Source: Natrinema amylolyticum
GTDB lineage: Archaea > Halobacteriota > Halobacteria > Halobacteriales > Natrialbaceae
Direction: 5' to 3'
Assembly (NCBI RefSeq): GCF_020515625.1
Contig: NZ_JAIWPJ010000004.1
Span: 1-64,000, forward strand
DNA length: 64,000 bases
This document shows positions 8,942 to 39,075 of this stretch, piece by piece. The position numbers were made by a program, and so were the translations under genes. Below the pieces are notes generated by a model that was not told where the DNA came from, searched no databases, and saw only the letters and a list, made by a program, of their open reading frames with translations. Each line of letters opens with the position of its first letter. Position 1 is the stretch's first letter.

Positions 8942-10456
8942 TTACACTAAGTCGAACGTCCACCGCTGGTTCGCGCCGGCGTTCCACGGCCATTGGATGA
9001 CGTCGGCGCCGTCGGCGGTCGATGCTTCGTTGACCTCGGCGACCTTGCCGCTGTTGGCGTTCTCGATTCGGTAGGTGCCGTCGCCGTTGTCGACGATGTG
9101 CCAGTCCTGGGTCGCGTTCCCGGTATCGGCGTACTGCTGGACCGTCGCGCCGTCGCTCGTGTCGGCGCCGGCCACTTCCATGAGCTTCCCACTGTTGACG
9201 TTTCGGAGGTGGAACGTCTCGTGGTCGTCCGTCTCGATCACTTCCCACTGTTGGCAGGCGTGCCCGGTGTCGGCGTACTGGCGGACATTGTCGCCGTCGC
9301 TCGTCCCGGCGTTGGCGACCTCGAGGCGCTTGCCGCTGTTGACGTTCGTGATCGCGTAGGTCCCCTCGCTGATGCCGATACCGCTGGTGACGGCGCCGCA
9401 GTCGTAGCTGCCGGTGTTCGGCATCGGGCTCTGCGTGCTCGGCGTCCCGTCGCAGGCGACGACCGGCCAGCCGTTCTCCCACTGGATTCGATCGATCATC
9501 ATGATGCGGGTCTCCTGGTCCGCCGTGGCTTCGACGTGGTAGAGCATCCACCAGTCGCCGTTTTCGTCCTGAATCGCGGTGTTGTGACCCGGACCGGTGA
9601 ACTCGTCCGTCCCGTTGAGGACCGACACGCCGCTCCGATGCTCGTTCAGGTCGCGCAGGTCGGTCCCGTTCTGGTTGTAGTAGGGACCGAAGAACGACTC
9701 AGAACGGCCGACCTCGAGCTCGTAGGTGCTGTCGTAGCCCTCGCAGCAGTGGCCGGTCGAGTAGAACAGGTAGTAGTAGCCGTTCTCCTCGATGACCATC
9801 GGCCCTTCGCGGTTGTCACCGGCCAGATGGAACGTCGTTCCCGAGACGTAGTCCATCCCGTCGCTCGTGAGTTCGACGCCGTAGAACCCGTAGAAACTCC
9901 CCCAGATCATGTAGGGAGTGCCGTCGACGACGCGGAACTCCGAATCGATGCAGTTGGTCATCCCGAGGTCCTCGGCCCTGAACACCGGTCCCTGATCCTC
10001 GAACGGACCGTCGGGCGTGTCCGAGGTCGCCACGCCGATCCCGGGGTTGTTCTGACTCCCCCACGTCGAGTAGGAGTAGTACAGGTAGTACTGGCCGTTG
10101 TAGTAGTTGATGTCGGGCGCCCAGACCCCTGCGTCCGGATCGTCGCGCCAGTCGGGGTAACTGTCGAACGCCGAATCGATGTACGTCCAGTTCACCAGGT
10201 CGTCCGAGGTCGCGATCGGAACGATGTCCTCCGGCGTCTCGGTCCCGTACGCGTAGTAGGTACCGTCGTCTGCCTGAATAGCGGTCACGTCACCGAATCC
10301 GAGCGGACCGACCGGATTGTGGTAATGGGTCGAACTGTCGTCTGCGGACGCCGAGCCGCTCGTCGCGATCGCACCCGCAGCGCCGAGCGCACCGGCACCG
10401 ATCGTTCGCAGGACGCTTCGCCGCTCAATACTTGTGTGGTCATAACTATCAACCAT
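8942..10456 (-). CDS. Exported GH43 arabinanase-like enzyme with C-terminal ricin-type repeats
   Basis: Predicted endo-acting alpha-1,5-L-arabinanase (or related GH43 enzyme) of 504 residues. Tat signal (ERRSVLRTIGAG, cleavage near SASADD). The five-bladed propeller shows the catalytic pattern of the family: Asp in FGDVTAIQ, Asp in NCIDSEFRV and the general-acid Glu in REGPMVIEENGYYYLFYS; GPGHNT is the conserved blade-closing motif of arabinanases. The last 140 residues hold three ricin-B-like repeats, each with NxNSGK near its start and an Q-x-W near its end (CQQW, TQDW, NQRW), a probable carbohydrate-binding module. The frame extends to 10522, but the TATA-like TTATTATG at about 10483-10490 fits a leaderless start at 10456. 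Divergent from the GH51 gene. Confidence 0.83.
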   Translation of the reverse strand: MVDSYDHTSIERRSVLRTIGAGALGAAGAIATSGSASADDSSTHYHNPVGPLGFGDVTAIQADDGTYYAYGTETPEDIVPIATSDDLVNWTYIDSAFDSYPDWRDDPDAGVWAPDINYYNGQYYLYYSYSTWGSQNNPGIGVATSDTPDGPFEDQGPVFRAEDLGMTNCIDSEFRVVDGTPYMIWGSFYGFYGVELTSDGMDYVSGTTFHLAGDNREGPMVIEENGYYYLFYSTGHCCEGYDSTYELEVGRSESFFGPYYNQNGTDLRDLNEHRSGVSVLNGTDEFTGPGHNTAIQDENGDWWMLYHVEATADQETRIMMIDRIQWENGWPVVACDGTPSTQSPMPNTGSYDCGAVTSGIGISEGTYAITNVNSGKRLEVANAGTSDGDNVRQYADTGHACQQWEVIETDDHETFHLRNVNSGKLMEVAGADTSDGATVQQYADTGNATQDWHIVDNGDGTYRIENANSGKVAEVNEASTADGADVIQWPWNAGANQRWTFDLV

Positions 10457-10743
10457 ACGGCTCTGGATATGGGCGTCCCTACATAATAATTCTTTGTTGG
10501 GAATACGTTCGATAGGAAACAAGATCAGCGCCGAAGTGATAGTCCGTTTTTCCCACTGATCTGTCAGTAGCAGTGTGAGTGCGTCGGTTTCTGTACCGAA
10601 CGACGATACCGCTGTTAATTTGTTAGGGTACCATCAAGATAGTCGCTCGTCGCTCTCGAGTCCTCCTCAATCTTCGAACTGCTCATATATGATTTTACGA
10701 CTATCAAAGAATACTTAATAATCGATAGTGAATAGCAGGTTGC
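10457..10743. promoter_or_regulatory. Divergent promoter region of GH43 and GH51 genes
   Basis: Two promoters point outward. On the minus strand TTATTATG (about 10483-10490) precedes the GH43 start by about 30 bases. On the plus strand CTTAATAATC (about 10711-10720) precedes the GH51 ATG at 10744 by a similar distance. The plus-strand TATA box is bracketed by the inverted pair ACTATC (10702-10707) and GATAGT (10726-10731), a possible regulator site. The arrangement suggests co-regulation of two exported arabinan-degrading enzymes. Confidence 0.5.
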
Positions 10744-13215
10744 ATGAGACGTGGTCACAACCACCGGTCCATCATCAGTAGTACCGACGCCGATCCTGAA
10801 CGCAGTCCCGTCTCCCGACGACGCTTTCTGGCGCTCCAGTCGATGGTCGTGGCCGGAGCCGCGACCGGGACAGTAGCGGGCAGTTCGAATCAGGAATCCG
10901 CTAATAGCGTCCGGAACACCGTTTCGCTGGACCTCTCGAAGCGGACGGACGAGGAAGTCTCCGATCAACTGTTCGGGCGACTTTGCGAGCACTACGAATC
11001 GGGCACGATCTACCCCGGCATCTACTCTGAGCACGTCAAGAACAACTCGTTCTACCCCAGAACGTGGTCGGAAGACGATCACTTCGGCCCGAAGACGCGC
11101 TTCGATCCCGAATCGATAGACCGACACGAGAACGTCCCGTTCCCGTGGGAGCCCGTCGACGGCTCCGGCGTCTCCTTCGAACAGCGCGAGGACGGTGTCG
11201 CCGCCGTCGAGACGACGAATTCCCAGCGGGTCTCCCTCGAGGACGCTCGCGGGGGGATCTCACAGAAAATCGTCCTCCCGGACTTCCGGACGCTGGGGTA
11301 CGACCTCTCGTTCTCGGTGCGCGGCGACGGGCTCGAGACCGTCACCGCCGCGATCACGACGCTGGACGGCGAGACCCTCGCGACCACCGACGTCGACGTC
11401 ACCGACGACTGGACCCGCCACGAGGTCGCACTCGAACTGGCCGAGGCGAGCGGCGATCAGTACGTCGCCGGATCGGTCGCGAACGTCGACACTCCCTATG
11501 GAGAGTACGTCCTCGAGTTCACCGCGGAGGGGAGCGGTCACGTCGACCTCGACTGGATCATGCTCGGGGCCGACGATGCGATCAACGGGAAGTTCAACCC
11601 GTCGACCGTCGAGTTGATGCGAGAGCAGAACGCGACCTGGCTGAAGTGGCCGGGCGGGAACTTCACGAGCCAGTACAACTGGCGCGACGGCATCGGCCCG
11701 CTGGACGAACGGCCGATGCGCTTCAATCACGCGTGGGGCGGCGTCGATCCGAACTACTTCGGCATCGACGAGTACCTCGAGCTGTGCGAGGTCGCCGATC
11801 TCACGCCGCGACTCACCGTCGGCTGGTGGGACAATCCGGGAGAGTGGGCGTCCGAGCGACAGATCCTCCCCGAAGACGCTGCCGACTGGGTCGAGTACTG
11901 TAACGGCTCGGCGGGAACGGAGATGGGCGCACTTCGCGCCGAGAACGGTCACCCGAAGCCGTACGACGTCGAACACTGGGAGGTCGGCAACGAGGTGTGG
12001 GGGCCGTGGCAGCGCGGCCATACGGCCGATCCTTCGGAGTACGCGAGCGGCTCCGCGGAGCGGATCGGGTTCAACGAGTACTACGACGCGATGATGGCGG
12101 TCGACGACTCCATAACGATCCTCGCGGACGGGATGGATCCGGGCTACAACGAGGCGAACACGCCGGATCCGGCCGAGTGGAACAGTACGCTGTTCGAGGA
12201 GTCCGGTGACCGCCTCGACGGGCTGGACCTGCACCGCTACAACTGGGGAATCGAGGACCAGGAGGCACGGGACGCGTGGTTCGACGAGAACGACGCGGAC
12301 CCCATCGACTACAACGAGGTGCTGGTCATGTTCCCGACGCAGTTCGGGGCACTGATGGACGAACTCAGCACCGAGGCCGCCGAGGCGGGTATCGAAGACT
12401 TCCGGATCAACGTCGGCGAGTACGGACTCTTCCCATCGGTCAACGAGGGCGATCCGTACCCCGGCCCGGAGACGATGCCGGGCGGCTCCTACATCGCGGG
12501 CATGCTCAACTCGTTCATCCGGCAGAGCGAGACCGTCGTCGAGGCCTCTCAGACGTGGGTACCCGTACGCATGTTCCCACCGGAGTTCACCGAGGCGCCG
12601 TCGGACCCGAACCCACTGGCACCGGCGGGGTCGGTGTTCGGTCTCTATTCGGCGGTGTTCGAGACCAACGCCGAGTGGCACGCGATCGACCTCGACGTCG
12701 ACGGTGCCAGCCGAACGATACCCGATACCGGTCCGCGCATCGACCGCATGGAGGACGTTCCCTACGTCGATGCCGCCGCCATGCAGAACGAGCGCGGGAA
12801 GGAGCTATGCGTCTTTCTGACGAACCGAAACCTCCGGGGAAGCAGCGAGGTCACCGTCGACCTTCCCGAGAAGTATGCCGGCAAGTCAGTGGCGATCACT
12901 CGTCACCGCGCGACTGCGAGCGAGCGACCGCTTCCCCACCACTTTCAGGACTCGTGGGAGGAACCGGACGTCTACGAAGTCGGTCACACCATCGAGTCCG
13001 TCGATCGTGACGGCTCGCTCACGCTCGAGGTCGGACCCGCATCGGTCGTTCGGTTGCTCGTCGACAACGATCGCGGACGTCCCGATACGGTCGGCGACGA
13101 CGGCGTGTGGTCGGGTCTCAACGGGAGCGAGTGCGACTGCAATCCGGCAAAAGGAGTGGGTCACGGGCTGTCACTGTTCGACTTGTTCGATATAGACGGG
13201 TCTCGAGGCCGATAG
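10744..13215 (+). CDS. Exported GH51 alpha-L-arabinofuranosidase with N-terminal binding domain
   Basis: An 823-residue GH51 enzyme that should remove L-arabinofuranosyl groups from arabinan or arabinoxylan outside the cell. A Tat signal follows an extended N-terminus (SRRRFLALQSMVVAGAATGT). Residues about 60-285 form a beta-rich carbohydrate-binding-like region, then the (beta/alpha)8 barrel. The barrel has the GH51 hallmark WPGGNFTSQYNWRDGIGP, the acid/base E417 in WEVGNEVWG and the probable nucleophile E559 in INVGEYGLF. The C-terminal beta domain ends with a short Cys-containing tail (ECDCNP). Its length is near that of bacterial secreted GH51 proteins with a CBM. It diverges from the GH43 gene, with which it would act on the same polymer. 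Confidence 0.88.
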   Translation: MRRGHNHRSIISSTDADPERSPVSRRRFLALQSMVVAGAATGTVAGSSNQESANSVRNTVSLDLSKRTDEEVSDQLFGRLCEHYESGTIYPGIYSEHVKNNSFYPRTWSEDDHFGPKTRFDPESIDRHENVPFPWEPVDGSGVSFEQREDGVAAVETTNSQRVSLEDARGGISQKIVLPDFRTLGYDLSFSVRGDGLETVTAAITTLDGETLATTDVDVTDDWTRHEVALELAEASGDQYVAGSVANVDTPYGEYVLEFTAEGSGHVDLDWIMLGADDAINGKFNPSTVELMREQNATWLKWPGGNFTSQYNWRDGIGPLDERPMRFNHAWGGVDPNYFGIDEYLELCEVADLTPRLTVGWWDNPGEWASERQILPEDAADWVEYCNGSAGTEMGALRAENGHPKPYDVEHWEVGNEVWGPWQRGHTADPSEYASGSAERIGFNEYYDAMMAVDDSITILADGMDPGYNEANTPDPAEWNSTLFEESGDRLDGLDLHRYNWGIEDQEARDAWFDENDADPIDYNEVLVMFPTQFGALMDELSTEAAEAGIEDFRINVGEYGLFPSVNEGDPYPGPETMPGGSYIAGMLNSFIRQSETVVEASQTWVPVRMFPPEFTEAPSDPNPLAPAGSVFGLYSAVFETNAEWHAIDLDVDGASRTIPDTGPRIDRMEDVPYVDAAAMQNERGKELCVFLTNRNLRGSSEVTVDLPEKYAGKSVAITRHRATASERPLPHHFQDSWEEPDVYEVGHTIESVDRDGSLTLEVGPASVVRLLVDNDRGRPDTVGDDGVWSGLNGSECDCNPAKGVGHGLSLFDLFDIDGSRGR

Positions 13216-13290: not shown

Positions 13291-14118
13291 TCAGAGGATC
13301 TGGTAGCCGCCGTCGACGTACAGGAGGTGGCCGGTGACGTAGTCGGCCTCGTCGGAGGCGAGGAACAGGTACGATCCCGCGAGTTCGTCGGGCGTCCCCA
13401 TCCGCCCCATCGGGATTTCGGGGTTGATCTCCTGAGCGTTGAGATCGGGGAGCTCCGCATCGGGAAGGATGAACCCATCGTCGATCTCTTGGTCGAAATC
13501 GGGGTTTCCGGCACCGAAGGTGGTCTCGATGATCCCCGGTGCGACGGCGTTGACCCGGATATCGTACCGAGCGAGTTCGAGCGCCGCGACGCGGGTGAGC
13601 ATCATGACCGCTCCCTTCGAGGCGTCGTACATCGAGTGACCGACCTGTGCGTACTCGGAGCTGATCGAGGCCGTGTTCACGATCGAACCCGGCTCCTCCC
13701 TGTCGAGCATGTCTCGAGCCGCCGCGCGACAGCCGGCGAAGACGCCGCGAACGTTGATCGCGAACACCTGATCGAACGCGTCGGCGTCGGTTTCGATGAG
13801 CGACGCCTCGCGGTAGATGCCGGCGTTGTTGACCATCACGTCGACGCCGCCGAACTCCCTGGCGGCCTCGACGACCGCGCCGACGGCCTCGGGATCGGAG
13901 ACGTCCGTTTCGATGAACTCCGCCCGGCCGCCCGCGTCCTCGACGAGTTCGTGCGTCGGCGCCGACGCGTCGTCCTCCTTCGGCTCTTCGCGGATGTCCG
14001 CGACGACCACCGTCGCGCCAGCCTCGCCGAATCGGCGAGCGACTTCGCGGCCGATACCGGACGTTCCGCCGGTCACGATCACGGTCTCGTCGGAGAAGTC
14101 GTACGTAATCTCTCCCAT
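13291..14118 (-). CDS. Classical SDR oxidoreductase (candidate sugar dehydrogenase)
   Basis: NAD(P)-dependent short-chain dehydrogenase of 275 residues. Cofactor motif TGGTSGIG at 16-23, D41 at the end of strand beta-2 (VVVADI) favouring NAD, NNAG at 97-100, and the catalytic set S151, Y164 and K168 (SMYDASKG). A C-terminal DGGYQIL end is typical of glucose-dehydrogenase-like SDRs. It lies between arabinan-degrading genes, so it is a candidate for oxidation of L-arabinose or another released sugar, the otherwise missing first step of the pathway in this window. The characterised Haloferax L-arabinose dehydrogenase is from a different SDR branch as far as I recall, so the substrate is an inference. 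Confidence 0.85.
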   Translation of the reverse strand: MGEITYDFSDETVIVTGGTSGIGREVARRFGEAGATVVVADIREEPKEDDASAPTHELVEDAGGRAEFIETDVSDPEAVGAVVEAAREFGGVDVMVNNAGIYREASLIETDADAFDQVFAINVRGVFAGCRAAARDMLDREEPGSIVNTASISSEYAQVGHSMYDASKGAVMMLTRVAALELARYDIRVNAVAPGIIETTFGAGNPDFDQEIDDGFILPDAELPDLNAQEINPEIPMGRMGTPDELAGSYLFLASDEADYVTGHLLYVDGGYQIL

Positions 14119-14270
14119 ACCCTATCTGTCGCTACCAGTCACTTAATTATTGCTTCGACCGATCGGAGGGGCCCCGGACTCGAGCCCCGATACTCGGTTC
14201 CCGTCGTCTCGATCACTCGAACTTATGTAATCGGAGACGAATGCGAATGTCGTGAGCCAACTGAGTAGAC

Positions 14271-14287
14271 GGATCGGAACCGATCCG
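14271..14287. promoter_or_regulatory. Inverted repeat upstream of the GH93-like gene
   Basis: CGGATCG-GAA-CGATCCG forms a 7-base-pair inverted repeat 36 bases before the ATG at 14323. A TATA-like ACTTATGTAATC lies at about 14222-14233, so the repeat would be in a 5' leader if that box is used. It could act as an RNA hairpin or as a protein site. Confidence 0.35.
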
Positions 14288-14322: not shown

Positions 14323-15486
14323 ATGACGACTGACAGGAACCGGAACGGGAACGCCCTCTATACGCCACCGGAGGGCGCGCCCGGTTCCGGCGCGATGTAT
14401 CCCCGCGTCGTTCGCCTCGAGCACGACGACTCCGAGGGTGAGACGCTGCTCGCGACCTTCGAGCGGTACGGGAGCGGCGACGACGAGGCGGAGCAGCCGT
14501 TCTTCCCGCTTTACCGCAGTCTCGACGGAGGTGAAACATGGTCGCGATTCTCCGAAATCCGCGACACGCGGAACGGCTGGGGGCTCCGGTATCAACCGAC
14601 GCTGTTCGAACTATCCGAATCGATCGGCTCCTGGTCGGCCGGGACGATACTGGCCGCGGGGAACTCCATTCCGGACGACCGATCGAGGACGAAAATAGAC
14701 GTCTACGCCAGCGAGGACGGCGGCCGGAACTGGTCGTTCGTCAGCACGGTCGCCACCGGTGGAAAGGCCGTTCCTCAAGTCGGTGCAACGCCGGTCTGGG
14801 AGCCCGAGTTCGCGATCGACGCCGACGGGAACCTCGTCTGTTACTTCGCCGACGAACGCCACCGCGAGGAGGGGTACAACCAGCTCGTCGGCCACCGCGT
14901 CTCCAGCGACGGCGGTCGAACGTGGGACGAGCAGGTCTTCGACGTCGCGATACCCGGCGGCGAAGAGCGACCGGGGATGCCCGTCGTGACGAAACTCCCC
15001 GACGGCAGCTACGCGATGGCCTTCGAAATCGTCGGGCCGACGTACGACGGCGGGATCTTCGTCAAGACCTCGCCGGACGGTCGGTCGTGGGGGGAGCCGG
15101 CGGATATCGGGTCTCCGGTACGGACGGCGGAGGGATACCAGCTCACGAACGGCCCCTACATCACGTGGACGGCAGCCGGCGGCGAGGAGGGAACCGTGCT
15201 CGTCTCGGGAAAGACACTGCGCGATCGAGAGGGCCAACAAGCCCCCGGAAGCGGGCAGACGCTCCTCGCCACGACTGATCTCTCGGGGTTCGACTCGTGG
15301 ACGGCCGTTTCAGCGCCGCTCCAGTTCGACGACGCGATCGACGTCGGTCACCAGGCGGTCGGGTGGACGACACCCTTGCTCCCGTCGCGGGACGGCGAAC
15401 GGCTGCTCGAGCTGACCTCGACGTCCGTCGGCGACGAGGAACGCTGTGCGATCAGCTACGCCACCGAACCGCTCGATCTGTGCTGA
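14323..15486 (+). CDS. GH93-type exo-arabinanase-like six-bladed propeller protein
   Basis: A 387-residue sialidase-fold protein. Four Asp-box-like turns are visible (SLDGGETWS, SEDGGRNWS, SSDGGRTWD, SPDGRSWG). The order YPRVVRL, QPTLFEL, VWEPEFAIDADGNLVCYFAD and RPGMPVVTKLPDGSYAMAFE matches my recollection of fungal GH93 exo-alpha-1,5-L-arabinanases, which release arabinobiose. There is no signal peptide, so it probably works in the cytosol on imported arabino-oligosaccharides, unlike the secreted fungal enzymes. A weak GGTGAG ribosome-binding-like sequence lies 7 bases before the ATG, in keeping with a leadered message. A generic BNR/sialidase-like hydrolase is the alternative. Confidence 0.7.
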   Translation: MTTDRNRNGNALYTPPEGAPGSGAMYPRVVRLEHDDSEGETLLATFERYGSGDDEAEQPFFPLYRSLDGGETWSRFSEIRDTRNGWGLRYQPTLFELSESIGSWSAGTILAAGNSIPDDRSRTKIDVYASEDGGRNWSFVSTVATGGKAVPQVGATPVWEPEFAIDADGNLVCYFADERHREEGYNQLVGHRVSSDGGRTWDEQVFDVAIPGGEERPGMPVVTKLPDGSYAMAFEIVGPTYDGGIFVKTSPDGRSWGEPADIGSPVRTAEGYQLTNGPYITWTAAGGEEGTVLVSGKTLRDREGQQAPGSGQTLLATTDLSGFDSWTAVSAPLQFDDAIDVGHQAVGWTTPLLPSRDGERLLELTSTSVGDEERCAISYATEPLDLC

Positions 15487-17154: not shown

Positions 17155-17315
17155 CCGCGGTGCTGGCTCTGTTGAAGCCCCGGCGGAGGGACACGTTTGC
17201 CGAGGAGTCTGCCTGCGGACTCTTCCCTCGAGCGGAGTTCCCGCCGTCGGATTTCGGACGCCGCATCGGTTGGGAGAACCAATAGCTTATGAGGTGCCCA
17301 GACGGTGATAGCCGT

Positions 17316-19277
17316 ATGGTACGGCAGCAAACGTCACACGCGGAACCGTTGGATCTCAGCGACGTGGCCGTCGATGACGAGTTCTGGAACCACTACGTCG
17401 AGCGGGTCCGTGAACGGATGTTGGAGTACCAGTACGAGCAACTCGAGGACAGCGGGTGTCTCGACAACTTCCGGATCGCCGCCGGCGATGCCGACGGCGA
17501 GTTCGAGGGGTTCTGGTTCGCTGATACCGACGCCTACAAATGGATCGAGGCGGCCAGCTACGTGCTCACGACCGCTGACGAGCCAGATCTCGAGGATCGC
17601 GTCGATGAGGTGATCTCGCTGATCGAGGCCGCCCAGGCCGAGGACGGCTACCTCAATACGTGGATCGCGATCGAGTTCCCGGGAAAGCGGTGGACGAACC
17701 TCTCGATCGGTCACGAACTCTACTGCGCCGGCCACCTCATTGAGGCCGCAGTCGCCCACCACCGCGCGACGGGCGAGGACTCGCTTCTCGACGTCGCTCG
17801 GGCGTTTGCCGACCTGATCGACGAGGTGTTCGGCCCCGATGGGCGTCAGGGCGTCCCCGGCCACGAGGAGATCGAGCTCGCACTCGTGAAACTCTACCGG
17901 GTCACTGACGAGGATCGGTACCTCGATCTCGCGTCGTTCTTCGTGGAGGGACGCGGCGAGGCGCTCGAATACGAATTCGAGGACACCGAGGACCGTGCAG
18001 GGAGCGAGGAGATGTGGAGCGCCATAGAGAGCGCTCTCTTCGACGATGAAGCGTACGACGGGACGTACGCTCAGGACCACGCGCCGATCCGAGAGCAGGA
18101 GACCGTCGAGGGACATTCGGTCCGCGCGATGTATTACTTCGCCGCTGCTGCCGATCTCGTCCTCGAAACCGGAGACGCCGAACTGTACGAAACGCTGACG
18201 GAACTGTGGCGGAACATGACCCAGCGCCGGATGTACGTCACGGGCGGGATCGGGTCTACCCACCACGGCGAGCGATTCACCGAGGACTACGACCTCCCGA
18301 ACAGGACTTCGTACGCCGAGACATGCGCCGCAGTCGGGAGCGTCTTCTGGAATCACCGGATGTTCCAGCTTTCCGGCGATGTGCAGTATCCCGAGCTCGT
18401 GGAGCGCACGCTCTACAACGGATTCCTCGCCGGGCTTTCCCGAGACGCGACCGAGTTCTTCTACGCCAACCCGCTCGAAGTCGGTCCGGACGGTCACGCC
18501 CTCGCGGACGAAAACCCCGACCGGTTCTCGAACCAGCGACAAGGGTGGTTCGACTGCGCGTGTTGTCCGCCGAACGCCGCCCGTCTGATCGCCTCGCTCG
18601 GGCGCTACATCTACGCTCGCGCGACCGATGAACCCGCCGTCTACGTCAATCAGTTCGTCGGGAGTGAGGCCGCTCTCACCGTCGACGACGCGGACGTCCG
18701 GCTGCGACAGGAGTCCGCCCTCCCGTGGTCCGGCGACGTGACGCTGACCGTCGACGCGGCCAAACCGACTGATTTCGCGCTCCGTGTCCGCGTCCCCGAG
18801 TGGTGTACCGACGTGACGGCGACAGTGGCGGGCGAGTCGCGCGCTGTTGATCCCGAGGATGGCTATATCGAGGTCGACCGGGAATGGGACGAGGCGGTGG
18901 AACTCACGGTCACCTTCGGAATGGCCCCTGAACAGCTAGTGGCCCACCCGGCGGTCGACGCTGCCAGCGGGAACGTCGCGCTACGGCGTGGCCCGGTCGT
19001 GTACTGTCTCGAAGGCGTCGACCACGACCGGCCGCTCGCTCAGTACACGGTGCCCGAGGACGCGGCGATCGAGGCCTCGCATCGATCCGACCTCTTGGGC
19101 GGGGTTACGGTCCTAGAGGGCGAGGCTCGAGTGCCCGACCGAGGTGAGTGGTCTGACGTGCTCTACCGTCGGGCAGCGGAGACTGAACGCCTCGATACGT
19201 CGTTCACCGCGGTTCCGTACTACGCGTGGGCGAACCGCGACCCGGGCGAGATGCGGGTCTGGCTCGAAACCGAGTGA
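17316..19277 (+). CDS. GH127 beta-L-arabinofuranosidase-like enzyme (first copy)
   Basis: A 653-residue GH127 (former DUF1680) protein. The (alpha/alpha)6 barrel carries the zinc-thiolate active site known from Bifidobacterium HypBA1: E335 and C337 in SYAETCAA, and C416-C417 in CACCPPNAAR; C416 aligns with the nucleophilic cysteine. The family removes beta-L-arabinofuranose from hydroxyproline-linked or other beta-linked arabinosides. No signal peptide. The frame opens at 17289, but the TATA-like AGCTTATGAG (about 17284-17293) fits ATG 17316, where the second copy's homologous start also falls. Downstream are the GH4 and sugar-acid genes on the opposite strand. Closely similar in organisation to the copy at 25015. 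Confidence 0.88.
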   Translation: MVRQQTSHAEPLDLSDVAVDDEFWNHYVERVRERMLEYQYEQLEDSGCLDNFRIAAGDADGEFEGFWFADTDAYKWIEAASYVLTTADEPDLEDRVDEVISLIEAAQAEDGYLNTWIAIEFPGKRWTNLSIGHELYCAGHLIEAAVAHHRATGEDSLLDVARAFADLIDEVFGPDGRQGVPGHEEIELALVKLYRVTDEDRYLDLASFFVEGRGEALEYEFEDTEDRAGSEEMWSAIESALFDDEAYDGTYAQDHAPIREQETVEGHSVRAMYYFAAAADLVLETGDAELYETLTELWRNMTQRRMYVTGGIGSTHHGERFTEDYDLPNRTSYAETCAAVGSVFWNHRMFQLSGDVQYPELVERTLYNGFLAGLSRDATEFFYANPLEVGPDGHALADENPDRFSNQRQGWFDCACCPPNAARLIASLGRYIYARATDEPAVYVNQFVGSEAALTVDDADVRLRQESALPWSGDVTLTVDAAKPTDFALRVRVPEWCTDVTATVAGESRAVDPEDGYIEVDREWDEAVELTVTFGMAPEQLVAHPAVDAASGNVALRRGPVVYCLEGVDHDRPLAQYTVPEDAAIEASHRSDLLGGVTVLEGEARVPDRGEWSDVLYRRAAETERLDTSFTAVPYYAWANRDPGEMRVWLETE

Positions 19278-21006: not shown

Positions 21007-21873
21007 TCACACTTCGACGACCGTGTTCACGAGTTCGCCGATCTGGTCGATGGCGATACGCACCTCGTCATCCGGGCGGAGCGTGAACCCTTCGTCCGGA
21101 ACGAGCGATGTTCCAGTGAGAAGAACGCCGTTCCCCGGGACTGCATTGTGATCGCGCCAGTACTCGACCAGTTCCTCACATGAGCGGTCCATCTCGCCGG
21201 TCGAGGTTTCGCCCTCGTAGAGTGTCTCCCCATCGCGGCTGATCTCCATCGTCATCGTCAGTTCGTGGGGGTTGCCGACGCTTTCGGCCGACGCGACACA
21301 GGGGCCGATCGAACAACACTTGTCGTATACCTTCGCCTGCGGAAGATAGAGCGGATTCTCGCCCTCAATCGAGCGGCTGCTCATGTCGTTACCGATCGTG
21401 TAGCCGACGATCTCGCCATCGTAGAGGACGATCCCGAGTTCCGGCTCCGGGACGTCCCACGCCGAGTCCGCACGGATCCCGACCGAGTCGTCGGGGCCGA
21501 CGGTCCGATTCGGCGTCGCTTTGAAGAAAATCTCGGGCCGTTCGGCCTCGTAGACGTCCAGATACATTTCCGGCATGCCGCTTTCGGCCTCGCGGGCTTC
21601 CTCACTGATCTCGTAGGTAACGCCGGCCGCCCAGACCTCGTCGGGGATCAGCGGCAGCGCGCTGTCGTCCAGCGCTCCGCGCTCGATGGTCGGCGCGTCG
21701 TCCGCGAGCGACTCGGCTAACTCGTCGACGGTCGCGTCTGCGATGTCCGCCGCCGCGGCGAGATCCGCAAAGGTATCGAGTCGTGGTTTGACTGCCGTGA
21801 GATCGTAGATAGCGTCACCGTCATCGGCGACCAATCTATACCCGTCTCCGCTGTGTAGTCGGTGATACCGCAT
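21007..21873 (-). CDS. FAH-fold 2-keto-3-deoxy-pentonate dehydratase-like enzyme
   Basis: A 288-residue fumarylacetoacetate-hydrolase-fold protein, taken as the second dehydratase of the non-phosphorylative pentose route (2-keto-3-deoxy-L-arabinonate/xylonate to alpha-ketoglutarate semialdehyde; KdxD/XacE-type in Haloferax). Metal ligands are visible as E143 and E145 in VPEPELGIVLYDGE and an Asp near 163 in TIGNDMSSR; FFKATPNRTVGP matches the substrate loop region. The start is ATG 21873, since the frame upstream runs through the promoter. It lies directly between the GH4 gene and the enolase-superfamily dehydratase, which supports the pathway assignment. Related 2-hydroxyhepta-diene hydratases are the alternative. 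Confidence 0.8.
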   Translation of the reverse strand: MRYHRLHSGDGYRLVADDGDAIYDLTAVKPRLDTFADLAAAADIADATVDELAESLADDAPTIERGALDDSALPLIPDEVWAAGVTYEISEEAREAESGMPEMYLDVYEAERPEIFFKATPNRTVGPDDSVGIRADSAWDVPEPELGIVLYDGEIVGYTIGNDMSSRSIEGENPLYLPQAKVYDKCCSIGPCVASAESVGNPHELTMTMEISRDGETLYEGETSTGEMDRSCEELVEYWRDHNAVPGNGVLLTGTSLVPDEGFTLRPDDEVRIAIDQIGELVNTVVEV

Positions 21874-21876
21874 GAC

Positions 21877-21909
21877 GGGACAAAGTAACTTATTGATAAT
21901 AAATGTCCC
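21877..21909 (-). promoter_or_regulatory. TATA box bracketed by inverted repeat, upstream of the FAH-fold gene
   Basis: The inverted arms GGGACA (21877-21882) and TGTCCC (21904-21909) enclose an AT-rich core that contains the minus-strand TATA-like TTATTATC. The inner arm ends three bases before the ATG at 21873, so transcription would start inside or at the edge of the repeat. A bound regulator, plausibly the IclR protein encoded nearby, could cover promoter and start site. Confidence 0.45.
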
Positions 21910-22127
21910 GTCCGCGGCGAACATCAGTTGACCCCCGTGTGGCTTCCCGATTGACTCGAACCTGACGACGGTACGGTCGCTCTCACGTCCGAATTGGCGG
22001 CTCCGAGGGTCGATCAGATGGTGACGAATCGTCCCGCGCTATACAGCGACCCGCGAACGTTCGTGAGCGTGACGTCGGCTCACACCTCGTCGACCAATCC
22101 GACGCTCTGCTCCTGAGTTCGATGACG

Positions 22128-23357
22128 TTACGCTTCGTCGAACATCTCGGCACCGTCGGCCAGGTGCTCCTCGACGGCGTCGAAGTCGAGCGTGAGGCCC
22201 AGCCCCGGTTTTTCCGGCACTTCCGCGTAGCCTTCGTGGATGATGTCCTCTTCGACGAGGTCCGACCACCAGCCCAGTTCGTAGGAGTGGTACTCCACCG
22301 CCAGCGAGTTCGGAATCGCCGCGCCGACGTGGATGCTGGCCATCGTGCCGATCGGCGAGGAGACGTTGTGCATCGCGACCGGCACGTAGTACATGTCCGC
22401 CAGATCCGCGATCTTCCGGGTCTGGCGCATCCCGCCGACGCGGGGGACGTCCGGCGCGACGATGTCGGCGGCCTGGTTCTCGAGGAGGCGACGGTTGCCG
22501 TGGTTGCGGTAGACGTTCTCGCCGACGGTGATCGGCGTCGAGGTCCGCTTGGTGACCTCCTCTTGGACGTCGTGGTTCTCCGGCGGGATCGGGTCCTCGA
22601 GCCACCAGACGTCGTAGTCCTCTAAGCGCTCGGCGAGGCGGTGTGCGCTGCCGGAGCTGAACGACCAGTGGCAGTCGAAGGCGACGTCGGCGCGGTCGCC
22701 GATGCGCTCGGTGACTTTCTCGACGATTTCGGCCTTGTGTTCGATCTCGGGGCCCCGGAGGTGACGGTTCGCGCGGTCTTTCTCGTGTCCCGAGGGGACG
22801 TCGAGGTCGAACTTCAGCGCGTCGTAGCCCAGATCCTCGACGACGCGCTCGGCCTCGTCGGCGCAGGCGTCGGGGTCGGCCTCGTCCTCGGTGTGGCAGT
22901 CGCAGTACATCCGCATCTCGTCGCGGTACTTGCCACCGATGAGCTGGTAGGCCGGCACGTCCAGAATCTTCCCGGCGACGTCGTGAAGCGCGAGTTCGAT
23001 CCCGGAAATCGCCGAAATCGCTTTCCCGGCGATCGACCCCTCGCCGGAGAGCTTCTGGACGAGGTGCTCGTAGAGCCGGTCGATATCGAGCGGGTTCTCT
23101 CCCTCGAGGAAGGGTGCCATGCGCTCGATGATCTCGCGGTCGCCGGCGCCCCAGTAGGACTCACCGTTACCGACGAGACCGGCGTCGGTGTAGACGCGAA
23201 CCAGCGTCCAGGGGTAGTTGCCGTCGACGATCGTGGTCTGAACGTCCGTGATCTCGACGTCGCGCGGTCCTCGGTCGGCAGAAACGCCCATCGTCTCCGC
23301 GGAGAGGTCGCGCATCGTATACTCTGCGTTCGGGTCAGATAACTGTCTGTAATCCAT
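22128..23357 (-). CDS. Enolase-superfamily sugar-acid dehydratase (arabinonate/xylonate type)
   Basis: A 409-residue mandelate-racemase-subgroup protein that should dehydrate L-arabinonate or D-xylonate to the 2-keto-3-deoxy acid, the role of xylonate dehydratase in Haloferax. The N-terminal capping domain (about 32-160) includes the YWGAGDREIIERM segment. The barrel has K182 (LKFDLD), metal ligands D228 (VAFDCHW), E254 (WWLEDPIPPENH) and E280 (TVGENVY), and the catalytic H330 (VAMHNVSSP). The start is ATG 23357, because a TATA-like TTTTAGTAG lies about 30 bases upstream; the frame upstream to 23462 has no coding character. Neighbours are the FAH-fold dehydratase downstream and the IclR regulator upstream, all on the minus strand. 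Confidence 0.87.
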   Translation of the reverse strand: MDYRQLSDPNAEYTMRDLSAETMGVSADRGPRDVEITDVQTTIVDGNYPWTLVRVYTDAGLVGNGESYWGAGDREIIERMAPFLEGENPLDIDRLYEHLVQKLSGEGSIAGKAISAISGIELALHDVAGKILDVPAYQLIGGKYRDEMRMYCDCHTEDEADPDACADEAERVVEDLGYDALKFDLDVPSGHEKDRANRHLRGPEIEHKAEIVEKVTERIGDRADVAFDCHWSFSSGSAHRLAERLEDYDVWWLEDPIPPENHDVQEEVTKRTSTPITVGENVYRNHGNRRLLENQAADIVAPDVPRVGGMRQTRKIADLADMYYVPVAMHNVSSPIGTMASIHVGAAIPNSLAVEYHSYELGWWSDLVEEDIIHEGYAEVPEKPGLGLTLDFDAVEEHLADGAEMFDEA

Positions 23358-23606
23358 CGACAGGTCGTGAATTACGGCAGGTGCTACTAAAACTTCCGTC
23401 TGCGATGGGATCGGCGTTCGACGATAGTCCTCGGAGACGGCGTCGCTCCCGCGGGCCGACACGTCGAGACGGGGTTCAGGGTCGTCCTCGAGAGCGGTGA
23501 CGCGGTCGACACAGTGGAAGCGAACGATCGAGCGACCGTTCGGGACTCGTACGGCGAGGCGTCGGAACGCCGGCTCTCGGTGGTCGAGCGGCCGTTCGGG
23601 AGCCGA

Positions 23607-24368
23607 CTACGAGTAGTTGTGCTCGAGTTCGATGACGTTTGCAGTCCCGAGCACGGCGTCGGGCAGTTCCTCGTAGAACCGCTCCTCGCTGATACGATGG
23701 ACCGGGCAGGCGACGCTGATGGCACCGATACTCCGCTCCTGTCCGTCCGTAATCGGGGCGGCGACACAACACAGGCCGGCGAGGCGCTCCTCGCGGTCGA
23801 TCGAGTACTTTCGCTCCCGAATCTGCTCGAGTTCGTCGAACAGTTGTTCGCGGTCCGTAATCGTCTTGTCCGTCATCTCGGGCATGCCGTGCTTGTCGAG
23901 CATTTCGGAGACCTCCTCTTCGGGGCGAAACGCGAGGATGGATTTGCCGAGCCCCGTACAGTGAAGCCTGACCTGCTTGCCCTCGTGGGTGTCCAACTCG
24001 ACGGCGTTCTGGCCTTGCGCCTGATAGAGGTAGATCCCCATCCCGTTTTTCTCGACGAGGAGGTTCGCCAACTCGCCGGTTTCGGTGGCGAGTTTGTCGA
24101 TTTCGGATCGAGCCGTCTCGTAAATCTCGGTCCGGTCTCGAGCGTACGCGCCGAGTCCGAGGAAGGAGAGGCCGATGTGGTACTCGTCGCCTTCCTTGAC
24201 GAGGTACTCCCTGTTGACGAGCGTGTTCAGATGGTTGTGGACCGCGCTCTTGCCGATATCGACCTGTTCGGCGATCTCGGAGACGCCCGCACCGTCGAGT
24301 TCCTGGATGATCTCGACGATCTCCATCGCTCTGTCGACCGTCCGGACCGGGTGTTTCGGTTCTGCCAT
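23607..24368 (-). CDS. IclR-family transcriptional regulator (XacR-like)
   Basis: A 253-residue regulator. Winged helix-turn-helix at about 8-70 (TVDRAMEIVEIIQ, then VSEIAEQVDIGKSAVHNHLN as the recognition region) and an IclR effector domain at about 80-250 with the family elements GKSILAF and GLCCVAAPI. The start is ATG 24368 (MAEPKHPVRTVDRAM), as in other haloarchaeal IclR proteins; the frame upstream lies in the promoter. In Haloferax volcanii an IclR protein, XacR, controls xylose and arabinose catabolic genes, and this gene adjoins the same two dehydratase types. It is the only evident sugar-pathway regulator in the window, so it likely governs the surrounding arabinan genes; this is inference. 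Confidence 0.85.
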   Translation of the reverse strand: MAEPKHPVRTVDRAMEIVEIIQELDGAGVSEIAEQVDIGKSAVHNHLNTLVNREYLVKEGDEYHIGLSFLGLGAYARDRTEIYETARSEIDKLATETGELANLLVEKNGMGIYLYQAQGQNAVELDTHEGKQVRLHCTGLGKSILAFRPEEEVSEMLDKHGMPEMTDKTITDREQLFDELEQIRERKYSIDREERLAGLCCVAAPITDGQERSIGAISVACPVHRISEERFYEELPDAVLGTANVIELEHNYS

Positions 24369-25014
24369 ACCACTCCTCTCATTCGAGATCATATAATGTT
24401 TGTTCTGTTTGAGTCCCCTCGCGTTCTCTAAGACGTCTCCGCTCTCCCCTATCATTGAACAGTACCGGAGGCGTCGGCCGCGTTGAGAGAGACAACACAT
24501 CGTTCTATAGAAGTGGGACATAGTCCATCTATACTACACCCGATTTTGTCGAAGAGAACGGGAGGGATGGCACATGAATTACTACCATATGCTTGTAAAT
24601 CAATTCGCGGTATTCCGTTCGAATCCGCCCTCGAATCCCATCTGAGAGGATATACGGCGATAGCAGCGGACGGTCGTGAAGCGAGTTCTCGGTACCGAGC
24701 GGTCCTCGTTCTGGAGATGGGCTGTTATAACAAGAATGCTATTCTCTATAATAGAATATTATCGGCACGGGACGAGCGGTGTGGCACCTCGACGTCGGAT
24801 GGAACGATATCGCGCTAGGTCACTGGAGCCGTCGGTTCGGGGACTCCCCCGGTCGATCACGGGACGTGAGGGACCTCTCTACGGGCCGCTCGGCGGCTAA
24901 CGGATACGATTGAGACTCACGACCGCGCCGGTGAGACGCTCCACGACCCCCTGTGACGGGCTTCTCGGTAACCCTTATTACTCGATAGCCGAGATGAGCG
25001 ATCGGAACACACTC
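24369..25014. other. Intergenic regulatory region between iclR-type gene and second GH127
   Basis: Holds divergent promoters of the IclR gene (minus) and the GH127 gene (plus; TATA-like CCTTATTACT at about 24972-24981). No gene is supported. Two adjacent palindromes at 24723-24758 are annotated separately. The AT content around 24720-24765 is much higher than in the flanks. Confidence 0.5.
24723..24758. promoter_or_regulatory. Paired AT-rich palindromes, possible regulator site
   Basis: TGTTATAACA (24723-24732) is a perfect 10-base palindrome. Eight bases later TATTCT-CTATAAT-AGAATA (24740-24758) has 6-base arms around a TATA-like core. Both lie about 260 bases before the GH127 start and 355 before the IclR start. 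They could be an operator array or an unassigned promoter. Confidence 0.35.
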
Positions 25015-26928
25015 ATGAGTTCATACGGAGCGCCGACGAACGCGATCACGCTCTCGGACGTCGAGATCGACGACGGATTTTGGTCGCTCCGACGGGAACG
25101 AAACAGGGACGTAACGATCAAATACCAGTACGAACAACTCGAGGAGTCGGGCACGCTCGAGAACTTTCGGCGCGTCGCCGCCGGGGAGTCCGGCGGCTTT
25201 CAGGGGATGTGGTTTCAGGACTCGGACGCTTACAAGTGGATCGAAGGGGCCTCGTACGTGCTCGCCCAGCGCGACGATCCGGAACTCGAGGCGAACGTCG
25301 ACGAGGTGATTTCGCTGATCGCCGACGCACAGCAGCCCGACGGCTACCTGAACACGTACTTCTCGCTGGTCGAACCCGAGAATCGGTGGACGAACCTTCA
25401 CATGATGCACGAGCTCTACTGTGCCGGCCATCTGATCGAGGCCGCGGTCGCCCACTACCGGGCGACGGAGAAGGAGACGCTGCTCGACGTGGCGATCGAC
25501 TTCGCGGATCTCGTCGACGACGTCTTCGGCGACGAAATCGAGGGCGTTCCGGGCCATGAAGAGATCGAACTGGCGCTCCTGAAGCTCTACCGAGTCACCG
25601 GTACGGATCGGTATCTCGACCTCGCGAAGTACTTCATCGATCTCCGCGGGAAGGACGACCGACTCGCGTGGGAAATCGACAATCCGGAGACGCTCGGCGG
25701 CGCCGAGTATGACGACGGTGGGGTCATTTCTGCCGCACGGGACGTCTTCACCCACGAAGACGGAACGTACGACGGACGGTACGCTCAGGCCCACGAGCCG
25801 CTCCGGGAACAGGAAACCGTCGAGGGCCACTCCGTCAGGGCGATGTACCTGTTCGCGGCAGCGACGGATCTCGCCATCGAGACGGGCGAAGACGAGTTGA
25901 TCGAGGCCCTCGAAGGCCTCTGGACGAACATGACCACCAAGCGGATGTACGTCACCGGCGGCCTCGGCCCCGAGGAGGCCCACGAAGGGTTCACGACGGA
26001 CTACGACCTCAGAAACGATGCCTACGCCGAGACCTGTGCCGCGATCGGGAGCATCTACTGGAACCAGCGGCTGTTCGAACTCACCGGCGAGGCGAAGTAC
26101 GCCGACCTCATCGAGCGGACGCTGTACAACGGCTTCCTCGCTGGCGTCTCGCTCGACGGGACCGAGTTCTTCTACGAGAACCCTCTCGAGAGCGACGGCC
26201 ATCACCACCGCAAGGGATGGTTCACGTGCGCATGCTGTCCGCCGAACGCGGCCCGGCTGCTCGCGTCGCTGGGCAAGTACGTCTACAGCCAGCGGGGACC
26301 AGCGCTGTACGTCAATCAGTACGTCGGCGGTAGCGTCACGACGACGGTCGACGGCGCGACCGTCGAGCTGTCACAGGACAGTTCCCTCCCGTGGTCGAGC
26401 GAGGTTACCATCGACGTCGACGCCGACGGGGCGTCGGTACCGCTTCGCCTTCGAATTCCGAAGTGGGCCGAGTCGTCGACGGTGACGGTAAACGGCGATT
26501 CGGTCGACGTGCCGTCCGAGGGTTACCTCGAGGTCGAACGGGAGTGGGACGACGGCCGGATCGAGCTGACCTTCGAGCAGACGGTCACGCAGCTAGAGGC
26601 CCATCCCGAGGTGGCGGCCGACGCCGGACGCGTTGCACTCAAACGCGGCCCGCTCGTCTACTGCCTCGAGGCAGTCGACAACGACCGGCCGCTCCACCAG
26701 TACGAGGACCCGTCCGCTTCGGTCTCGACGGAGCATCGGTCGGACCTGCTCGAGGGAGTCACGGTCATCGAGGGCGAAGCGAGCGTCCCGGATCGGGAGG
26801 GCTGGGACGGCGAACTGTATCGTCCCGCGAACGAGACGGCTCGAGAACGGACCGAGTTCACCGCGGTGCCGTACTACGCCTGGGACAACCGTGATCCCGG
26901 TGCCATGCAGGTCTGGATCCGGTCGTAG
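25015..26928 (+). CDS. GH127 beta-L-arabinofuranosidase-like enzyme (second copy)
   Basis: A 637-residue GH127 protein, homologous over its whole length to the copy at 17316. Active-site residues E339 and C341 (AYAETCAA) and C407-C408 (CACCPPNAAR) are all present; C407 corresponds to the nucleophile. Compared with the first copy it lacks the ~10-residue insert before CACC (the PDGHALADENPDRF region) and has LGPEEAHEGF where the first has IGSTHHGERF near the acid/base glutamate, so substrate preference may differ. No signal peptide. Of three in-frame ATGs (24910 region, 24994, 25015) the last fits the TATA box and the start of the first copy. It has its own promoter next to the IclR gene. Confidence 0.88.
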   Translation: MSSYGAPTNAITLSDVEIDDGFWSLRRERNRDVTIKYQYEQLEESGTLENFRRVAAGESGGFQGMWFQDSDAYKWIEGASYVLAQRDDPELEANVDEVISLIADAQQPDGYLNTYFSLVEPENRWTNLHMMHELYCAGHLIEAAVAHYRATEKETLLDVAIDFADLVDDVFGDEIEGVPGHEEIELALLKLYRVTGTDRYLDLAKYFIDLRGKDDRLAWEIDNPETLGGAEYDDGGVISAARDVFTHEDGTYDGRYAQAHEPLREQETVEGHSVRAMYLFAAATDLAIETGEDELIEALEGLWTNMTTKRMYVTGGLGPEEAHEGFTTDYDLRNDAYAETCAAIGSIYWNQRLFELTGEAKYADLIERTLYNGFLAGVSLDGTEFFYENPLESDGHHHRKGWFTCACCPPNAARLLASLGKYVYSQRGPALYVNQYVGGSVTTTVDGATVELSQDSSLPWSSEVTIDVDADGASVPLRLRIPKWAESSTVTVNGDSVDVPSEGYLEVEREWDDGRIELTFEQTVTQLEAHPEVAADAGRVALKRGPLVYCLEAVDNDRPLHQYEDPSASVSTEHRSDLLEGVTVIEGEASVPDREGWDGELYRPANETARERTEFTAVPYYAWDNRDPGAMQVWIRS

Positions 26929-29041: not shown

Positions 29042-29313
29042 TGTCTCGGTGACTGTCGGATCCGGTCGCTCAAATAGGTTGGTACTCCGTGACGACAGCG
29101 GTCGTCCGAAAAAATCGGTTGCCGCTCGCTTCGTCGCGCCGTCTCTGCTCTTTCGACGGAATATCGGACGGGAATAAAGCGACGATCGTTCGAAGTGTCG
29201 TTCATTAACGTTGGTAGAATGAGTGGTCGGCGACCCCGTTCTTTCGGGTTTAACAGGTGCAGAGTGACAGAAACCGAGGAACTTATAACACTTTATCAGA
29301 AAGAGAGGTGTGG

Positions 29314-30822
29314 ATGGCTAACGCACGTATTACGGTTCATACTGCAGCGGATATCGACCGCATCGAACCCGAAGTCCACGGTCACTTCTCCGAACACCTC
29401 GGGCGGTGTGTCTACGAGGGTCTCTGGACCAGCGACAGCACCGATGAAGACGGGTACCGAGAGGAGGTCGTCTCGCTCCTGTCCGACCTTGAGATTCCCG
29501 TTCTCCGCTGGCCCGGCGGCTGTTTCGCCGACGACTACCACTGGGAAGACGGCATCGGTCCACAGGAGGACCGACCGCGACGCCGGAACCTCTTCTGGGC
29601 GCAGGGCCCGGAGGAGCTCCCCGAGGAGTCCAACGCCTTCGGTACCGACGAGTTCCTGGAACTCTGTGAGCGAATCGGTACGGAGCCGTATCTCGCGGCC
29701 AACGTCGGCTCGGGCGACCCACAGGAGGCTACCGACTGGGTCGAGTACTGCAACTACGACGGCGACACCGAACTCGCCGACCGACGACGCGAGAACGGCC
29801 GAGAGGAGCCCTACGGCGTTAAGTACTGGGGACTCGGCAACGAGAACTGGGGCTGTGGCGGCCAGATGACCCCCGAGCAGTACGCCCGCGAGTACCGGCG
29901 GTACGCGACCTACGTCGGGACCATGGACAACCTGATGCTCGATCACGAACTCGAGCTCATCGCCTGTGGCTTCGAGGGCCACGAGTGGAACCGACGATTC
30001 ATGGAGGAGATCGCGAGCGAGGCCTGGGGCGCGGAGTTCCCGCTCGACCACCTCACGCTGCACCACTACTACGGGCGGACGATGAACGTCTCCGAGGCCG
30101 ACGAGGACCAGTACGACCAGCTCCTCGTCGAGGCCCTCGAGATGGAAGACCACATCGAGCGAATCGCCGCGGCGATCAACGCGGTGGCGACGACCCGCGA
30201 CATCGGCGTCATCATCGACGAGTGGGGCACCTGGCATCCCGAAGCGACGGCCGACAACGGGCTCGAACAGCCGGGGACCGTCCTCGACGCGCTCTCGGCA
30301 GCGGCCGTCCTCGACATCTTCAACCACCACAGCGACGTTGTCACGATGTCGAACATCGCACAGACGGTCAACGTCCTGCAGTGTCTCGTCGAGACCGACG
30401 AGGACGACGCCTGGGCGCGTCCGACCTACCGCGTCTTCGACCTGTACGCACCCCACAAGGGTAGCGAGGCCGTGCAGACGTCGGTCGAGGCCCCGTCGCG
30501 CGAACTCGCCGACGACGCCGAGGACCGCGAACTGCCCCTCGTCGGCGCGTCCGCATCGGTCGACGACGACGAGACCTACGTCACCGTTACGAACCTCGAC
30601 TGCCGCGAGACCCAGACGATCGACGTCACCCTCGAGGGAATCGACCTCGAGTCCTCGTCCATCGAGGCCGAGCTGCTGTTCGCGGACCAGGATCCCGACC
30701 TGGAAGTCGACGCCGACAACGCCGACGAGTTCACCGCCGAGGAACTCGACGTGTCGGTCGACAGCGGTTCCCTGATCGCCGAGCTGCCGGCGTCGACGGT
30801 GGCCGGAATCTCGATCGAATAA
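29314..30822 (+). CDS. GH51 alpha-L-arabinofuranosidase, cytosolic
   Basis: A 502-residue GH51 enzyme without signal peptide or extra domains, the size of classical intracellular AbfA proteins. EPEVHGHFSEHLGRCVYEGLW opens the barrel, followed by RWPGGCFADDYHWEDGIGP. The acid/base is E177 in GLGNENWG and the nucleophile E303 in IIDEWGTWHPE. The C-terminal beta-sandwich covers about 385-502. It would cleave terminal alpha-L-arabinofuranose from imported oligosaccharides. The start is ATG 29314: ACTTATAACA at about 29281-29290 is a TATA box at leaderless distance; the frame opens earlier (29257) without support. A T-run at 30843-30847 follows the stop and may end the message. Confidence 0.9.
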   Translation: MANARITVHTAADIDRIEPEVHGHFSEHLGRCVYEGLWTSDSTDEDGYREEVVSLLSDLEIPVLRWPGGCFADDYHWEDGIGPQEDRPRRRNLFWAQGPEELPEESNAFGTDEFLELCERIGTEPYLAANVGSGDPQEATDWVEYCNYDGDTELADRRRENGREEPYGVKYWGLGNENWGCGGQMTPEQYAREYRRYATYVGTMDNLMLDHELELIACGFEGHEWNRRFMEEIASEAWGAEFPLDHLTLHHYYGRTMNVSEADEDQYDQLLVEALEMEDHIERIAAAINAVATTRDIGVIIDEWGTWHPEATADNGLEQPGTVLDALSAAAVLDIFNHHSDVVTMSNIAQTVNVLQCLVETDEDDAWARPTYRVFDLYAPHKGSEAVQTSVEAPSRELADDAEDRELPLVGASASVDDDETYVTVTNLDCRETQTIDVTLEGIDLESSSIEAELLFADQDPDLEVDADNADEFTAEELDVSVDSGSLIAELPASTVAGISIE

Positions 30823-36976: not shown

Positions 36977-36985
36977 TCGGTCTCC

Positions 36986-36990
36986 TTTTT
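36986..36990 (+). terminator. T-run after the binding-protein gene
   Basis: Five Ts ten bases after the stop codon, ahead of a new TATA box for the permease genes. Archaeal termination depends on T-rich stretches, so this may be a partial terminator that lets the binding protein be made in excess. Confidence 0.35.
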
Positions 36991-37013
36991 AACCAGCCAA
37001 TCAGCTAAAGCGG

Positions 37014-37025
37014 AATTATTATAAG
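37014..37025 (+). promoter_or_regulatory. Promoter of the permease-ATPase operon
   Basis: The AT-rich AATTATTATAAG, about 35 bases before ATG 37054, is a clear TATA box and predicts a start near 37045 with a short leader. It gives the four transport genes downstream their own transcript, separate from the binding protein. Confidence 0.5.
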
Positions 37026-37053
37026 GTAACACGAGCCACAGATACACAAATTA

Positions 37054-38067: not shown

Positions 38068-38080
38068 GAGGTGACATTCG

Positions 38081-39073: not shown

Positions 39074-39075
39074 CA

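Follow-up and report, generated by a model that had tools for sequence, protein, structure and literature searches.

Predicted cytoplasmic GH93 exo-arabinanase in Natrinema amylolyticum and apparently inactive, IclR-fused relatives in other haloarchaea

The window of Natrinema amylolyticum DNA analysed here (the whole stretch of 64,000 nucleotides, contig NZ_JAIWPJ010000004.1) encodes a protein without export signal that is firmly placed in glycoside hydrolase family GH93 by sequence and predicted fold, and that with a probability of about three in four is a catalytically competent cytoplasmic exo-alpha-1,5-L-arabinanase, its activity and product being predicted from sequence. The occurrence of GH93 in an archaeon is already known. 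GH93 genes of H. turkmenica, H. utahensis and H. volcanii are named together in a passage of one paper (PMC3102087), and haloarchaeal GH93 genes also appear in part of another (PMC9726719), where isolates grown on arabinan are described as 99% similar to Halobacterium hubeiense. A GH93 gene is present in the record of that species, NZ_LN831303.1, and is of the Tat type by its match to the locus in G108. What seems to be new is the signal-less type of GH93 and, above all, catalytically dead GH93 domains fused to an IclR regulator. An earlier note on this DNA had regarded both the archaeal host and the missing signal as unusual; since haloarchaeal GH93 was reported in 2011 and 2022 and many copies are Tat-tagged, only the signal-less type stands as the unusual feature. 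A cytoplasmic location, which is most likely, would set the site of arabinobiose formation, and arabinobiose could act as an internal signal. The active enzyme and the dead, sensor-like form can moreover be compared residue by residue, as a case of a transcription factor apparently built from a carbohydrate enzyme.

According to the ORF list and the translation of the window, the 387-aa ORF opens with an ATG (Table 1). An in-frame TAG lies at 14266 and the next ATG, GTG or TTG is the ATG at 14323, which is thus the earliest usual start, so that a longer, signal-bearing ORF is impossible from a usual start. The ordered conserved blocks and four Asp-box turns described in the earlier note are all present in the translation: MYPR (residues 25-28), QP (91-92), WEP (159-161), CYFADER (173-179), RPGM (216-219) and KLPDGSYAMAFE (224-235), with Asp-box-like turns SLDGGETW, SEDGGRNW, SSDGGRTW and SPDGRSW. 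Orthologues in other haloarchaeal species are 83-85% identical and dN/dS of the gene against four orthologues is 0.20-0.24; by these values and the phmmer E-value given below, the ORF is far beyond chance.

In a phmmer search of PDB sequences the strong matches were GH93 entries only, led by the exo-arabinanase Abnx of Penicillium chrysogenum (3a71, E 4.5e-64) and followed by the Arb93A entries of Fusarium graminearum (E 1.3e-54 for 2ydt to 6.3e-54), with the top sialidase-like entry at E 5.8e-4. An AlphaFold2 model built from 8 sequences (pLDDT 78.3, pTM 0.84; weak at residues 1-25, 336-347 and 367-373) retrieved GH93 structures first in Foldseek (E 7.9e-27 to 4.6e-25; sialidases from 1.8e-8), and VIA-align 2 aligned it to GH93 structures with Z 42.7-43.0 and rmsd 2.2-3.2 A over 341-347 residues, compared with Z 26.9 for the best sialidase. 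Both comparisons bear out the GH93 call of the earlier note, which had set this family against GH33/BNR and had named Arb93A as the structural reference. The window protein appears to share its fold, block order and both catalytic glutamates with Abnx (3a71) and Arb93A (2w5n, 2ydt, 2ydp). Abnx and Arb93A are secreted fungal enzymes, whereas the window protein is signal-less and has insertions near the C-terminus that are also seen in other haloarchaeal GH93 copies. Identity to the characterised GH93 enzymes is 33-39% over the fold, which means that linkage or chain-length preference could differ.

Neither the Pfam nor the NCBIfam results for the window protein contained a GH93 model. The top Pfam domain was BNR_2, at 28.1 bits below the cut-off of 31.4, with others weaker; NCBIfam matches were weak and a PHROGs scan gave no family. 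The BNR_2 match, the RefSeq labels of the orthologues ('sialidase family protein', 'exo-alpha-sialidase') and the propeller fold common to sialidases (Z 25-27) would all suit a sialidase or an unclassified BNR-repeat protein, yet such an identity is extremely improbable because GH93 structures all rank first, by a wide margin, in sequence as well as fold, both GH93 catalytic glutamates are kept and the locus contains arabinose-related enzymes. It was rejected, as the sequence search, Foldseek and VIA-align 2 all favour GH93, and the RefSeq label, which is misleading for haloarchaeal GH93, is corrected here.

The two GH93 glutamates, which presumably serve as acid/base and nucleophile, are both found in the window protein by alignment, the opposite of the absence that the earlier note had named as refuting its reading. 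E160 is the counterpart of Arb93A E170, which we take to be the general acid/base, and E235 faces, in the phmmer alignment, a residue that is Ala in PDB entry 2ydp, titled E242A mutant. Both residues are kept in 31 of 31 aligned non-fused sequences, among which L007 and L030 represent the same gene. Together with the sequence and fold matches, this alignment points to a GH93 protein with both catalytic glutamates.

Export signals were judged by motif, hydropathy or eye. By motif and hydropathy reading, the window protein lacks a Tat motif as well as a hydrophobic stretch at the N-terminus, its best 15-residue hydropathy within the first 75 residues being 0.15, as against 1.37 and 1.47 in two Tat-tagged neighbours. 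The lack of a signal peptide, claimed from the window alone, is thus upheld, also by the missing upstream start, and is conserved in the orthologues. Across the class, GH93 was found at E 1e-10 or better in 23 of 391 genomes. Reading of the N-termini showed that eight of these, the window genome included, have a stand-alone signal-less copy and that four have a signal-less copy joined to a further domain; in the remaining 11 every copy has an N-terminus of the twin-arginine type. In three of the eight (G209, G220 and G375) a Tat copy lies some 10 kb from the signal-less one. G015 and Halosimplex aquaticum (L031) bring to 10 the genomes in which a stand-alone GH93 without signal was read; haloarchaeal GH93 with an RR-type N-terminus was read at 15 loci. 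In G015 (the Natrinema sp. SYSU A 869 replicon; L002/L004), the signal-less GH93 gene is frame-shifted near codon 270 and the Tat paralogue is intact. Plasmid pHTUR02 of Haloterrigena turkmenica encodes a signal-less protein 85% identical to the window protein (HTUR_RS21985) as well as a Tat paralogue (HTUR_RS21950), whereas the 4.7-Mb N. amylolyticum genome has a single GH93 copy and no Tat paralogue.

GH93 enzymes known so far in fungi are mostly secreted. An N-terminal export signal (hydrophobic stretch, lipobox or RR motif, by eye) was likewise seen in 10 of 10 bacterial homologues, five of them from genome contigs (L032-L036) and five from plasmid records (L085-L089, taken from 12 bacterial plasmid records listed); the sample is a small one, and some bacteria may have GH93 proteins without signal. 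Such a pattern could suggest that the window protein also works outside the cell, leaving it by some signal-free route. This is very unlikely, since exported haloarchaeal paralogues use an evident Tat signal, both types lie about 10 kb apart in the same genomes (G209, G220, G375 and, with the signal-less copy frame-shifted, G015), and the fused relatives described below bear a DNA-binding domain. The window GH93 is likely cytoplasmic, and the existence of a related signal-less clade joined to a DNA-binding domain lends independent support to this location.

The gene sits in an arabinan/L-arabinose locus (Table 1), which also contains two GH4 genes. Its pairing with the SDR gene recurs in five of the other genomes read, namely Haloterrigena salina (L030), H. 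turkmenica (L041), G363 (L042), G190 (L045) and Natrinema 869 (L046). The window and H. turkmenica pHTUR02 have the gene order GH43-ricin / GH51-like / SDR / GH93 in common, and differ in that the window is without a GH2 gene between the GH93 and the M24-like gene. The FAA-hydrolase and dehydratase genes likely provide steps in the oxidative breakdown of a presumed pentose substrate. The M24-like protein (window 16051-17154), found beside arabinan genes in several genomes, has a weak Pfam match (35.5 bits) and seems by eye to be missing the usual M24 Asp metal ligands.

In the pathway that we propose, arabinan would be cut outside the cell by the Tat-exported GH43 and GH51-like enzymes, as their signals and families suggest, and the arabino-oligosaccharides would be imported via the ABC importer. 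The GH93 enzyme would then take arabinobiose off the non-reducing end; by alignment with Arb93A and Abnx, E160 would act as acid/base in this step and E235 would be the nucleophile. Signal-less GH51 enzymes would next cleave arabinobiose to L-arabinose, to be oxidised via a dehydrogenase/dehydratase route. The same role is proposed as that of AbnB of Geobacillus stearothermophilus, described in a passage of PMC4194401 as an intracellular GH43 arabinanase cutting imported arabino-oligosaccharides, although family and mechanism differ (GH43, inverting). Counting against the proposed role, mannan-using isolates with GH43, GH51 and GH93 genes failed to grow on arabinan, according to part of PMC9726719.

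The presence of two GH127 enzymes (beta-L-arabinofuranosidase type) and the M24-like protein indicates that the locus is not purely a linear-arabinan kit, and would fit a GH93 enzyme acting mainly on other alpha-L-arabinofuranosyl oligosaccharides, such as arabinoxylan or glycoprotein side-chain fragments, instead of linear 1,5-arabinan. The best NCBIfam match of the GH127 enzyme closer to GH93 is aceric acid hydrolase, below the cut-off. We nevertheless consider a different main substrate rather unlikely, given that GH93 exo-arabinanases release arabinobiose from linear arabinan, as stated in part of PMC11813348, and that the best NCBIfam match of the GH43 neighbour is the endo-arabinanase AbnA (E 3.1e-42, below cut-off).

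Table 1. Features of the window around the signal-less GH93 gene, and GH93-IclR fusion loci in other genomes
Feature	Position	Strand	Basis or remark
GH43 arabinanase-like protein with ricin-type lectin, Tat signal (RRSVLR)	8942..10522	-	profile search, motif
GH51-like alpha-L-arabinofuranosidase, Tat signal (RRRFLA)	10744..13215	+	profile search, motif
Classical SDR dehydrogenase, divergent neighbour of GH93	13291..14118	-	profile search, comparison
18-bp palindrome CGGATCGGAACCGATCCG	14270..14287	.	sits between TATA-like TTATGTAA and the GH93 start codon
Predicted signal-less GH93-type exo-alpha-1,5-L-arabinanase, 387 aa	14323..15486	+	ORF, sequence search, fold comparison
Codon of E160 (WEP), equivalent of the GH93 general acid/base Glu	14800..14802	+	alignment
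Codon of E235, aligned with Arb93A E242	15025..15027	+	alignment
GH127 family enzyme, no signal	17289..19277	+	profile search
FAA-hydrolase family and mandelate-racemase family dehydratase	21007..23462	-	
IclR-type regulator	23607..24521	-	
Second GH127 family enzyme, no signal	24910..26928	+	profile search
GH51 alpha-L-arabinofuranosidase, no signal; candidate arabinobiose splitter in the cytoplasm	29257..30822	+	
ABC importer, oligopeptide/oligosaccharide type	35201..41245	+	Tat lipoprotein binding protein, two permeases, two ATPases
GH51-like enzyme, no signal	41548..43734	-	
GH93-IclR fusions	L037:9076-11163, L038:9721-11826, L039:9968-12082, L040:8832-10946, L050, L054		

At four loci (L012-L015) a single ORF was found to encode GH93, then a variable linker and then an IclR regulator. 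A Pfam scan detected HTH_IclR (2.1e-13 to 3.7e-14) and IclR_C (6.9e-16 to 1.3e-19) in all four of the fusions scanned. With a fused protein as query, six full-length fusions from four genera (in G396, G409, G265, G142, G103 and G420) were obtained from 125 genomes of the window's family, the IclR domains of the two fusions not among the four scanned being assigned by full-length match; no fusion was among the matches listed for 146 genomes of another family. Examples are HALXA_RS21210 (WP_013875845.1) on pHALXA01 of Halopiger xanaduensis and MUH00_RS19495 (WP_247004427.1) of Halosolutus gelatinilyticus, both annotated as 'helix-turn-helix domain-containing protein'. The neighbourhoods of the fusions contain arabinofuranosidases, GH127, GH2 and a further IclR, together with the kind of ABC importer found in the window locus, with the binding-protein gene of the importer directly after the fusion in G142 and G103. 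No second GH93 appeared in the fused genomes among the best few candidates scored.

In the fusions of G396, G409, G265, G142, G103 and G420, the E160 position is occupied by A, A, A, V, V and D and the E235 position by F, F, F, Y, Y and H, respectively. Among 55 columns invariant across 32 non-fused GH93 sequences (the initiator Met being one of the columns, and the cut L002 and two segments from fungi being among the sequences), nine are altered in at least one fusion, and E160 and E235 are the only ones altered in six of six. Restricting the comparison to non-fused haloarchaeal GH93 gives 119 invariant columns, five of which are altered in all fusions (E160, E235, N276, T283 and S295). Q187 is replaced by Arg in five of the six and R216 by Thr in three, which argues against a fully kept pocket, and the ligand may differ. 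Between five fusions, dN/dS is 0.11-0.18 for the GH93 domain, 0.07-0.19 for the IclR part and 0.07-0.75 for the linker; the value for the dead GH93 domain is similar to that for the IclR part and mostly below that for the linker, and the domain is maintained by purifying selection.

In a tree of GH93, the haloarchaeal proteins form one clade (support 100) apart from bacteria and fungi, and within it the fusions form one clade (100), as do 14 of the 15 Tat copies (100). Deeper joints are weak (26-64), with the stand-alone signal-less proteins as one clade at 47 and the attachment of the fusions at 26 and 64. In view of these supports, a direction from enzyme to sensor is argued from the outgroups with intact glutamates and not from the branching.

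As would be expected of a pseudoenzyme transcription factor, each fusion has a DNA-binding domain in the same ORF and has lost the catalytic residues from a domain otherwise kept, and on these two points the fusions look like candidate sugar-sensing transcription factors derived from a glycoside hydrolase. We lean towards the reading that in one haloarchaeal branch the catalytically dead GH93-IclR protein is a one-component receptor, through which cytoplasmic arabinobiose or longer arabino-oligosaccharides would control the genes for arabinan uptake and breakdown; to about the same degree, we favour the window protein as its live stand-alone cousin, in the enzyme state. A sugar-responsive regulator would suit the known haloarchaeal IclR regulators of sugar catabolism, of which XacR, GacR, RhcR and MscR are named in part of PMC11519228. 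The sensor-like appearance of the fused relatives and the IclR gene in the same locus could also be taken to mean that the window protein itself is mainly a sugar sensor or co-regulator acting with the nearby IclR protein, with catalysis secondary, a role that is hardly probable given that every aligned stand-alone copy has both catalytic glutamates and that the window protein has no DNA-binding part by Pfam.

A receptor of the GH93-IclR kind would, if true, be a prokaryotic counterpart of the plant BZR1-BAM proteins (BAM7 and BAM8), in which a beta-amylase-like domain is joined to a DNA-binding domain and which are proposed as metabolite sensors in the relevant passage of PMC6394054. Both appear to combine a transcription factor with a glycoside hydrolase that is inactive. 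However, the families are unrelated, and BZR1-BAM proteins belong to plants whereas the fusions are archaeal and occur at loci for the corresponding sugar. No description of GH-IclR or GH-regulator fusions was found in the accessible portions of the open-licence PMC literature; a 2018 study of composite haloarchaeal genes names extracellular GH fusions in a passage (PMC5992828), and IclR has zero occurrences in its main text.

The palindrome upstream of the GH93 gene, a possible operator, recurs unchanged in L030 and almost unchanged in Natrinema sp. SYSU A 869 and H. turkmenica. Its whole 18-bp sequence occurs at one site within the 64-kb window. Of 14 stretches scanned, two have a similar 12-bp core, at one site each: L037, where it lies about 200 bp upstream of the fusion, and L030. 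The remaining 12 have none; with a single site in the window and the core in two of 14 stretches, no regulon is claimed. In Halosolutus gelatinilyticus (L037:1591-3756), two importer ABC ATPase genes are fused into an ORF of 721 aa. Just 3' of the GH93 gene of N. amylolyticum, at window 15583-15711, lies a 42-codon ORF with CxxC pairs that resembles a zinc ribbon.
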